This document shows, in pieces, positions 54,948 to 57,225 of a DNA stretch of 64,000 bases (within the stretch, counting starts at the first letter, position 1; each line of letters starts with the position of its first letter). The translations under genes were made by a program, and so were the position numbers. The notes beneath the pieces were generated by a model. It was not told the DNA's origin. It searched no databases and was given only the letters and a program-made list of their open reading frames with translations. This stretch comes from Leisingera sp. S132. Lineage in GTDB: Bacteria > Pseudomonadota > Alphaproteobacteria > Rhodobacterales > Rhodobacteraceae. The stretch is taken from NCBI RefSeq assembly GCF_025144465.1, contig NZ_CP083553.1, positions 1,238,001-1,302,000 of the forward strand, in the 5' to 3' direction.

Positions 54948-55067
54948 GGGCCGAAAAGTGAGCTTGCCTTTGCCCTGCGCCTGTATGTGGCGTGCCCCCA
55001 TCGGGTGGTCCGGTTTAATTGTTAGTGCATCGTGGGTCTGGAGCTCACCCCATTTTTGGCCCGGGCT

Positions 55068-55947
55068 TCATGCGACCTTTCGGGTTTCGTTCAGTTGGGC
55101 CGCACATTCGCTCGGCGTCAAGTTCCCCGGCGAGGAATGCGGCCTGGCTTCATTGTAATCGGCTCTCCATTCGCTGATCCGCTTTCGGGCGTCGTCCATC
55201 GACAGGAACCATGAGGCGTTCAAGCATTCCTGTCTAAGGCGGCTGTTGAACGCTTCGATGTATGCGTTATCTTTCGGTTTTCCGGGCCTCGAGAAGTCCA
55301 ACTCGACCTTGTTCAGGTAGGCCCGCTGGTCAAGTAACCGGCCGGCGAACTCAGGCCCCTTGTCGGCTCGAATGCTTCGTGGCTTGCCTCGGATCCGGGC
55401 TAACCGATCCAATTCATCACTGACCTGGCAGGCTCGGAAGTTTGTCCTCGCAGCAGTCGCGAGAGCCTCTCTCGTAAAGCAGTCGGCAATGGTCGCAATA
55501 CGAAACGGTTTTTCGTCGAACGGCCGGTCCGACATGAAGTCCCCTCCCGGCGATGCACGGCATCGCCTGCCGGGCAGGGATTGCCCAGATCTCATTCATG
55601 CCGTCAGCCTCGGATCGGCCGGATCGATACCGGCAGGCCCGGCGCCGCTTCGGGCTGCGGGTCCGGATCGACAGGCCCTCTTCGCAGTACAGGCGGTACA
55701 GGCGCTTGTGGTTCACATGCCACCCCTCCCTTTGCAGCAGTATGTGCAGGCGACGATATCCATACCGCACACGGCTTTCGGCCAACTCCTTCAGGCGCAT
55801 CCGCAATTCAACCGCCGGATCGCGCCTGGATTGATATCTGCGGGAAGCCCGTCCGAAGCCCATGGCATTACAAGCACGGCGCTCCGACACCTCAAACACA
55901 CCCTGATAGTGCCGGACGACCTCGCGGCGGCGGACAGGCTTCACCAC
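55068..55947 (-). pseudogene. IS3-family transposase orfB, frameshifted by a 37-bp insert
   Basis: The first half (55947 down to 55580) has YGYRRLHILLQREGWHVNHKRLYRLY and NEIWA; the second half, in another frame, has DFMSDRPFDEKPFRIATIADCF, IRADKGPEFAG and NAYIEAFNSRLRQECLNASWF. Removing bases 55543-55579 joins them as NEIWAMDFMSD, the family sequence. The second catalytic motif reads ADKGPEF instead of VDNGPEF. The frame also relies on the overlap with orfA at an A6G slippery run. Not functional as it stands. Confidence 0.92.
55543..55579 (-). repeat. Double-hairpin micro-insert A (37 bp) inside IS3 orfB
   Basis: On the minus strand: palindrome CCTGCC-C-GGCAGG, hairpin CGATGC-CGT-GCATCG, tail CCGGGAGG. 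It splits the codons of the conserved AMDF motif, and its removal restores the frame exactly. Same architecture as the insert at 56320-56360. Confidence 0.8.
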
Positions 55948-56207
55948 TTTTTTCTCAGCGCGTCCTGCAACATCGTTTTGTCCAGCGTCAGATCAGCGAC
56001 CAGGCGCTTCAGCTTGCTGTTCTCGTCTTCGAGCTGTTTCAGCCGCCGGATCTCCGACACACCCATCCCCGCATAGACCTTCTTACCGCGATAGAACGTC
56101 GCTTCCGCGACCCCCATCTTGCGGCAAATCTCTCCAACCGCCGTCCCGGCTTCCGCTTGCCTTAAAGCAAAGGCAATCTGTTCGTCGCTCAATCGTTTCT
56201 TCGGCAT
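55941..56207 (-). CDS. IS3-family transposase orfA
   Basis: An 88-residue helix-turn-helix protein (KRLSDEQIAFALRQAEAG, EICRKMGVAEATFYRGKKVY) with the C-terminal leucine-rich coiled coil KQLEDENSKLKRLVADLTLD. GGGAG precedes the ATG. It ends at AAAAAAGTGGTGA, where the A6G run is the usual minus-one slip site for making the OrfAB fusion. Intact. Confidence 0.93.
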   Translation of the reverse strand: MPKKRLSDEQIAFALRQAEAGTAVGEICRKMGVAEATFYRGKKVYAGMGVSEIRRLKQLEDENSKLKRLVADLTLDKTMLQDALRKKW

Positions 56208-56279
56208 CGGTACACTCCCTCTCTTGCCAGAAATGTTCCCAAAAATTCGCATTCACTCCGGACCAGTTTCAGGGGGCAC

Positions 56280-56467
56280 ATGCCCGCCGAGCGCCTCGGT
56301 CCGGCAGGCTTCGATCGCCCCCTCTCGTGACATTGCTTAGCAATGCACTGCCGGGCAGTGGACATTACCCTGAGCTGGGTGTGGCTGACATGCCCGGCAT
56401 TGGCCCGCCGCCATGCGGGACCATGGGCGCGAAAGATGTCAGCGATTTCAAGCCTCGGGCGGGGCAC
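56280..56467 (-). pseudogene. IS91-family transposase, N-terminal fragment
   Basis: Starts [19 protein letters not shown] and [15 protein letters not shown], matching the start of IS91-family transposases. The frame then breaks at a 41-bp insert (56320-56360). Beyond it, in another frame, AIEACRTEALGG continues the family sequence until the IS3-family end at 56279. The remainder (about 85-90% of a normal transposase) is not found on the other side of the IS. Confidence 0.82.
56320..56360 (-). repeat. Double-hairpin micro-insert B (41 bp) inside the IS91 fragment
   Basis: On the minus strand: palindrome CACTGCC-C-GGCAGTG, hairpin CATTGC-TAA-GCAATG, tail TCACGAGAGGG. Its removal rejoins VMS-AIEACR, the family sequence. 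The stems differ from insert A by paired compensatory changes. Confidence 0.78.
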
Positions 56468-57225
56468 CGCCCCGGTCCGCTTATCCCGCCTTCGATCCTG
56501 CAGCTTGGCCAGCGTCTCGTAGGGGCTGCCGTGTCACGGATCAGCTTCGTGGCGACATGTGTGTAGCGCTCCGTTGTCTCGAGTATGGAATGCCCGAGCA
56601 GCACCTGGATCACCCGCAGATCTGTCCCAGCCTCCAGAAGATGTGTCGCGAAGCTATGCCGCAGCGTGTGCAGCGTGCTGCCTGGCTTCTTGATCCCCGC
56701 GATGAGCTTTGCCGAGCTGAAGGTGCGGTGGAGCTGGCGCGACGAGAGGGGGTTGATCTTGGGCTTGCCCGGAAACAATCAGCCCTCGGGCCGCGCCTCG
56801 CGCCAGTAATCGCGCAGCAGGTTCAGCAATCCCGGCGACAGCATGAAACTCCGGTCCTTCCGCCACTTGCCCTGTTCGACATGGATCAGCATCCGGTCGC
56901 TGTCGATATCGCTGACCTTGAGATTGCAGGCTTCAGATGCACTGAGCGCGGCCCCATAGAAAATTCTGAGCGCCGCCCGGTTCTTCAGCCCCGGTCCTGG
57001 TACGACCCGCAGCAGCGCCGCTACTTCCTCGGCGCTGAACACCACGGGGAGCTTGCGCGGCTGGGTGCGGAACTGCATGTGCCGCTTCATCTCGCCCCGC
57101 CCGCAGGTGGTCTCAAAAGAGAACTTCAGCGCAATGAGACGGGTGTTGTAGGTCGGCGACCTGACACCGCGGTTGGCAAGAGAGGGCGGTGCTTGCTGCA
57201 CAGCCCGTGCGGCTCGCAAGGTCAT
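56365..57225 (-). pseudogene. Tyrosine recombinase, inactivated (IS91-associated type)
   Basis: Upstream part: RKLPVVFSAEEVAALLRV, FYGAALSASEACNLKVSDID. Downstream part in the same frame: [36 protein letters not shown] with His-x-x-Arg and the nucleophile Tyr. The two are split by a TGA at 56779-56781 where the family has Trp (ARPEG-Trp-LFPG). In addition the first catalytic Arg is Ser (ALSASEA for GLRASEA), and the N-terminal SAM-like domain is incomplete. Two independent inactivating changes show long decay. It precedes the IS91 fragment on the same strand, a known pairing. Confidence 0.85.

Follow-up and report, generated by a model that had tools for sequence, protein, structure and literature searches.

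What are the short, hairpin-forming inserts that interrupt two different transposase genes of Leisingera sp. S132 with one and the same architecture? We have addressed this question for the window, by which we mean the whole 64,000-nt stretch of DNA analysed, by following the two inserts into relatives of their host genes and into other genomes. The best explanation is that both window inserts are members of one non-autonomous mobile-element family, ∼33–48 bp in length, in the Rhodobacterales.

Two inserts interrupt nested insertion sequences

The inserts and their surroundings are organised as follows.

55068..55947, minus strand: IS3 orfB, split by the 37-bp element; N-terminal arm HTH_21, C-terminal arm rve and rve_3 (Pfam)
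55543..55579, minus strand: 37-bp element inside IS3 orfB, located between the WAM codons and the DF codons; CCCTGCCCGGCAG, then a hairpin around GCGATGC-CGT-GCATCGC, then a GGGAGG tail
55941..56252, minus strand: IS3 orfA; HTH_Tnp_1
56262..56467, minus strand: putative 5' fragment of an IS91-type transposase gene with the 41-bp element, left limit approximate, truncated by the IS3
56320..56360, minus strand: 41-bp element in the 5' part of the IS91-type transposase gene (VM-S-AIEACR); CACTGCCCGGCAG, hairpin GTGCATTGC-TAA-GCAATG-T-CAC (G shared), then a GAGAGGG tail
56365..57225, minus strand: remains of a tyrosine-integrase gene, companion of this IS91 type, by reading of the translation

Inspection of the sequence places both inserts on the minus strand where an earlier note on this DNA had described them. 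Omitting the 37 bp at 55543–55579 gives back WA-M-DFMSD in IS3 orfB, with HTH_21 and rve/rve_3 matches in its two arms, and omitting the 41 bp at 56320–56360 gives back VM-S-AIEACR in the IS91-type gene, so that the interruption of both frames claimed in that note is borne out. The stretch 56262..56467 is read as an IS91-type fragment by its similarity to loci L302 and L033, its 35-aa arm having no Pfam match. Across 55040–57225 of the window the IS3 sits inside the IS91-type element and, because one has inserted into the other, two element-bearing mobile elements are nested here.

When aligned with intact relatives, for which genome relatives were used in place of ISfinder, the inserted bases are missing from the relatives. 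An empty homologue of the IS91 site in G009 is 96.9% identical over 131 bases, an empty homologue of the IS3 site in G005 is 81% identical over 161 bases, and the match of a Sagittula plasmid to the complete IS3 has 38 bases fewer than the query. Three further copies of the 37-bp element, equal in length and score, are present in the same genome (L016, L018 and L019), and a different insert is observed in G019 (L103) at the nucleotide identical to that of the window's IS91 site. An Rfam search of 55000–57000 gave no match at E<=5. Folded alone, the window inserts give z scores of −1.4 to −2.3 relative to shuffles, a modest gain; the structural claim rests on covariation across the family.

A widespread family with conserved structure

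A strict pattern has 7 matches in the same genome, compared with 0 for a reversed-pattern control, and a covariance model built from four inserts detects 15 copies there at E<=1e-5, both of which speak against chance. All 15 are located in IS genes at six sites, as judged from host frames read by eye: five at one site in an IS5-type host, four in the window's IS3 type, three in another IS3, two in IS427-type hosts (two sites) and one in IS91. At E<=0.1, copy number among genus-mates reaches 74 in G002, 68 in G009 and 60 in G003, other genus-mates having 1 to 9, some of them weak; G019 carries 36 copies. G033 gives 32 matches at E<=0.1, the best at 2e-6, perhaps representing a diverged subfamily that is poorly modelled here. 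In a family-wide sample, 87 of 295 genomes have a match at E<=1e-5. Scanning genome contigs with the pattern detects at least 120 stretches; among the 80 matches listed, ∼72 are Rhodobacterales by their titles, and matches such as those from Halomonas, Streptomyces and Paludibacteraceae, also among those listed, look like chance. Nine viral contigs match the pattern. At L061, L064, L071 and L097, a single IS-rich stretch contains between four and six matches to the element, oriented both ways. The covariance-model search, which the earlier note had proposed, thus reveals many further copies and, combined with the empty relatives, supports its suggestion of a very small, structure-defined family of mobile elements. 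That this is a real mobile family we regard as practically certain. Titles and the opening parts of abstracts, the portions of the literature searched, contained no description of these elements.

Sites were collected with regular expressions, which limits element lengths and tails; within these limits lengths range from 33 to 48, 41 being the commonest (147 of 251). The unit is ordered as C-N-Y-TGCCCGGCAG, hairpin 2 and CGAGAGGG. Covariation was analysed in 75 of the 92 distinct 41-mers that end GAGAGGG; these 75 begin with C and end in CGAGAGGG, the tail having been required at selection. In this set the palindrome CTGCCCGGCAG is fixed and hairpin 1 is almost invariant; hairpin 2 is free in sequence with its structure kept, double changes being observed at 8 of 8 pairs, such that the paired stem changes which the earlier note had seen between two inserts extend to the 75 distinct 41-mers. 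Hairpin positions are paired in 96.7% of cells with a covariation score of 0.401, compared with 0.133 in shuffles, and shuffled and slid controls are far lower than the real alignment. Position 31 of the 41-mers is a nearly constant unpaired T, which is lacking, by eye, from shorter units. Full elements account for 277 occurrences of CTGCCCGGCAG among the fetched loci, without de-duplication, and it is also present at 30 other distinct places, some resembling decayed or cut elements and others chance coding matches; no half-element family was seen among these stray places.

Insertion at a weak motif without target duplication

The cleanest filled and empty pair, L067 and L311, is ∼95% identical, and the filled copy is longer at the site by precisely 41 bp, target bases being neither duplicated nor lost at the junction. 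Of 271 distinct sites, 190 have an empty homologue among the fetched loci. In different species, a filled and an empty copy of an IS can be 98–99% identical, which suggests, on the basis of sequence identity, that insertion activity is recent. The target flanks of 158 clusters, in which 28-base targets were joined at <=10 differences, read C/T, C, A/G, T, C and then G, a weak motif YYRTC^G; elements insert 3' of YYRTC and in most cases in front of a G. The earlier note had located both inserts just before GG; the G does form part of the motif, but the motif is weak and lies mainly on the 5' side. A target hairpin was considered and rejected, there being no consistent complementarity across the site and the best diagonal (3-nt loop) being weak. 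At a common site, CCATC^AGGGCCAGCGG, three different inserts are observed in L048, L152, L194 and L246; a copy in L316 has flanks matching this site near a frame that we read as IS110-like, and the site may lie in IS110 DNA.

Hosts and orientation

Transposase-similar DNA adjoins 85 of 126 sampled copies compared with 762 of 20,000 random points (3.8%). Loci were taken from the genome-contig scan with self-matches excluded, random points were >1.5 kb from any element, and the comparison proteins were the element hosts' own, so that host bias here measures concentration in those families. The remaining 41 of the 126 copies are not beside DNA resembling the host set, some of them resembling IS sequence by eye. 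Compared with Pfam, 143 host arms match mainly DDE_Tnp_1, rve, Y2_Tnp, IS66, IstB and Mutator, among the best 25 of 41 families. Where a frame was chosen (179 of 249 sites), elements lie against the coding strand in 92 and with it in 87, the even orientation expected for a process at the DNA level. Of the 141 sites whose frame was weak or absent, 28 lacked similarity to the other host proteins. Ten doubtful host arms comprise eight without a Pfam match and two non-IS matches (ADDB_N in L205, FrhB_FdhB_C in L228), and these sites are perhaps chance pattern matches.

Recurrent insertion at the same nucleotide

Two or more different inserts are present at the same nucleotide in 47 of the 158 target clusters, including the window's IS91 site. 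Fifteen variants are observed at the IS5-type DSTG site, nine at IEIMFG and five at DATYLK of the IS427 type, motifs which we take to contain catalytic residues. Scored with a matrix built with the hot spots included, the IS5 DSTG site ranks 13th of 2,936 positions, and DATYLK and IEIMFG rank 6th and 12th of 1,630 in IS427. Better-scoring positions are unhit and insert counts are far more uneven than motif scores; the short motif leaves both the preference for ISs and the exact nucleotide unexplained.

Seven DSTG hosts share an identical variant at one and the same nucleotide, and two of these hosts have diverged to dS ∼1.1 with dN/dS ∼0.10 over 160 codons. In a tree of 29 IS5-type copies, in which L077, L206 and L172 were set to filled by hand, empty and filled copies interleave, with several mixed sister pairs at support >=0.98. 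That the 41-mer is unchanged while its hosts have diverged at synonymous positions suggests that it was either gained repeatedly or, as a frozen insert, lost exactly on repeated occasions. Purely vertical descent of such a frozen insert is unlikely, given the empty copies interleaved on the tree and the IS91 site, at which the inserts of the window and L103 differ at three compensated pairs although their IS91 hosts each share ∼97% identity with the same set of empty copies. A single generic variant is present at 12 distinct sites. Stop codons are present, in the stretch examined, in 13 of 17 filled DSTG hosts but also in 8 of 9 empty ones, and host decay is therefore not decisive.

Insert-bearing ISs as vehicles

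G002 contains five near-identical 887-bp IS427-type copies, each with the same insert before DATYLK, four differing by 0–3 bases and the fifth being 99.8–100% identical (BLAST). The insert aside, frames are open, with the frame change between orfA and orfB that is usual for the IS427-type group. No intact full-length close relative of this IS was found in G002 at E<=1e-10, the relatives found being a piece of 85% identity that covers residues 1–88 of 119, further fragments and one remote gene at 30% identity. Another IS in G002, with four inserts, is 99.4–99.8% identical to two further copies. As judged from these near-identical copies, ISs with inserts have themselves multiplied. The plain explanation is that the insert-bearing 887-bp IS was probably moved in trans by intact relatives. 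L302 and L098 (G009) contain an IS91-type element with three inserts, two copies being identical over 1,739 bp.

Proposed mobilisation and alternative explanations

Our best explanation, which we consider probable, is that the inserts form a REP-like, non-autonomous family that is mobilised in trans, perhaps as single-stranded DNA, and hitchhikes on ISs. A trans-acting enzyme would recognise the hairpins and tail, cut 3' of a YRTC site and join the element there; transfer would most simply proceed as a single strand, as for IS200/IS605 or REP elements, and an element once within an IS would travel as a passenger whenever the IS is mobilised. The lack of target duplication, the one-sided motif and the hairpins in combination suggest strand transfer by an enzyme of HUH type or one like it. 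Movement in trans, probably as single-stranded DNA, which the earlier note had already raised, is by itself a tentative proposal. In the fetched loci and the genomes examined, neither a mobilising gene nor a larger parent element was found. RAYT-type Y1 (PF01797) has no match in the same genome, in G002 with its 74 copies or in G019 with its 36, and 69 of the 87 element-bearing family genomes are without a Y1 match (overlap counted by hand). The Y1 genes located close to elements in L085 and L316 appear to be there by coincidence, and IS91 was rejected as the parent, the ends of the G009 IS91 copies being unlike the element.

One observation is at odds with this explanation, as an untargeted element should not recur as the same variant at the same site in diverged hosts. 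Homing-like spread into matching empty IS sites, either by cutting and repair from a filled copy or through a trans-acting guide, would be consistent with the identical variant in seven IS5-type hosts at dS ∼1.1 with empty copies interleaved, with the several variants in 47 of 158 clusters and with the location of the hottest sites within the conserved stretches DSTG, DATYLK and IEIMFG. In pairs with <70% flank identity, the nearest 15 bases on each side are somewhat more alike where inserts are identical (0.87 versus 0.81; 0.90 versus 0.80), but bins of 70–98% flank identity have no excess near the insert, and no clear conversion tract is observed there. A guide in the element was rejected, as hairpin 2 and the target share words at a frequency barely above that in shuffles (152 target clusters), the observed mean being reached by 24 of 500 shuffles at ±6 nt, 255 at ±8 and 367 at ±12; junction-spanning 7-mers number 5 versus 2.2 expected, a value reached by 29 of 500 shuffles. 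Mutual information between element and target, with z up to 7.5 in 400 single-position tests, probably arises because inserts at related sites are themselves related. Targeting of active sites was also rejected, the excess of Asp codons being mostly a consequence of the motif (18 seen versus 13.3 expected among the 38 of 82 distinct sites that have the exact motif), and the presence of the generic variant at 12 different sites also argues against homing, which we consider unlikely. A site-addressed, anti-transposon form of insertion, in which a guide or homing directs the element to conserved active-site stretches as a reversible IS off-switch, appears quite improbable; if true, it would account for the landing of different variants on one nucleotide in hosts that are unrelated and for the return of one variant to one site, and ISs would be kept silent yet still carry the element.

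Two further explanations concern what the inserts are rather than how they are aimed. We doubt strongly that they are ordinary REPs of a known REP/RAYT or CGTC-REP system that happen to sit in IS genes, even though the size, the hairpin, the tag on one side near a C-R-T-C site and the alphaproteobacterial host agree with this and CGTC REPs are likewise reported to have no dedicated transposase in the part of the published account drawn on here (PMC3733652). Y1_Tnp genes do co-occur with elements, which are present in 18 of 30 genomes with Y1 versus 69 of 265 without it (odds ratio 4.3, p 0.00025). However, IS91-type Y2 co-occurs similarly (odds ratio 3.1, p 0.008; 295 genomes, overlaps counted by hand), a general IS load may lie behind both associations, and Y1 was not found in the same genome, G002 or G019. 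In addition, the C-R-T-C belongs to the target and not to the unit, the hosts are mainly IS genes rather than intergenic DNA, and the two hairpins, GAGAGGG tail and fixed CTGCCCGGCAG match neither published description in the portions consulted. Removal or skipping of the insert during expression, by a mini-intron or translational bypass that leaves the broken transposases functional, is very improbable. The G002 IS has multiplied though every copy has the insert and no intact full-length close relative was found there, and, once joined, the frames of L001, L002 and L006 are otherwise open, with dN/dS ∼0.1 between L001 and L002; trans mobilisation, however, is the usual explanation, the helper may have been lost, and a low dN/dS can predate insertion. 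Both orientations are about equally common, which an RNA process should not tolerate.

Relation to known elements

Insertion 3' of a short target without duplication, as in L067 versus L311 and in the motif, and hairpins near the ends recall IS200/IS605, and most 41-mers have in hairpin 2 an unpaired T reminiscent of the extrahelical T at the ends of IS608. In the present case there is no Y1 match in the same genome, no guide relation was found and shorter units are without the unpaired T; a full-length parent was not recognised among the fetched loci, nor was Y1 found in G002 or G019. GTAG REPs and REPINs with RAYTs are likewise non-autonomous, hairpin-defined, present in many copies and presumed to be mobilised in trans; the 5' GTAG/GTGG foot is replaced here by an initial C and a YYRTC flank, and the RAYT-type Y1 gene is not found in the same genome or the two high-copy relatives. 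A classical MITE of a DDE transposon does not fit, as there is no target duplication and the two ends differ. Mitochondrial byp elements are frame-interrupting hairpin inserts which are skipped by the ribosome; the present elements are hairpin inserts of similar size that interrupt frames, but in both orientations about equally.

The portions of Di Nocera et al. 2013 (PMC3733652) considered here describe CGTC REPs as short and palindromic, commonest in Alphaproteobacteria and sometimes intragenic, with a C-R-T-C-like tag beside one end and no dedicated transposase known. The same portions give CGTC, TGTC or CCTC within the unit, one 8–9 bp stem starting AT, a 4–5 nt loop and a CCA-like tail, the units often being head-to-head dimers and mostly intergenic. 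The present family shares with them the short palindromes, the C-R-T-C-like tag at one end, the alphaproteobacterial hosts and the lack of a known dedicated transposase. In contrast, it has two hairpins, the fixed CTGCCCGGCAG and a CGAGAGGG tail; the alignment and pair counts do not fit the stem, loop, tail or in-unit tag, C-R-T-C being present in the empty target, and the setting also differs, with transposase-similar DNA beside 85 of 126 copies. CGTC REPs, likewise without a known enzyme, are the closest described kind, from which the family is set apart by stem, loop, tail and setting, as far as these portions of the account go. Rickettsia palindromic elements (RPEs) are also short palindromes within protein genes of Alphaproteobacteria, and the same source, in the part considered, has them and other intragenic REPs translated within varied host genes (PMC3733652), whereas the present elements break frames and favour transposase genes.

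The family would represent mobile DNA near the lower size limit, with an identity that resides more in structure than in sequence, and one that parasitises other mobile elements or is directed at them. Its natural hot spots, with both empty and filled copies, are a place to seek the missing enzyme, and the answer could transfer to CGTC REPs because the same missing-transposase problem exists there. The annotation of IS 'pseudogenes' in marine bacteria is directly affected.

Four copies of 34–37 bp are located between other open frames rather than in ISs, at L123:7540-7573, L181:4632-4665, L192:1353-1386 and L129:4399-4435. Three of them have the hairpin GGCGGC-NNN-GCCGCC, two or three share a AAATACTC-like flank and their target bases differ from YYRTC; they possibly constitute a separate REP-like branch.
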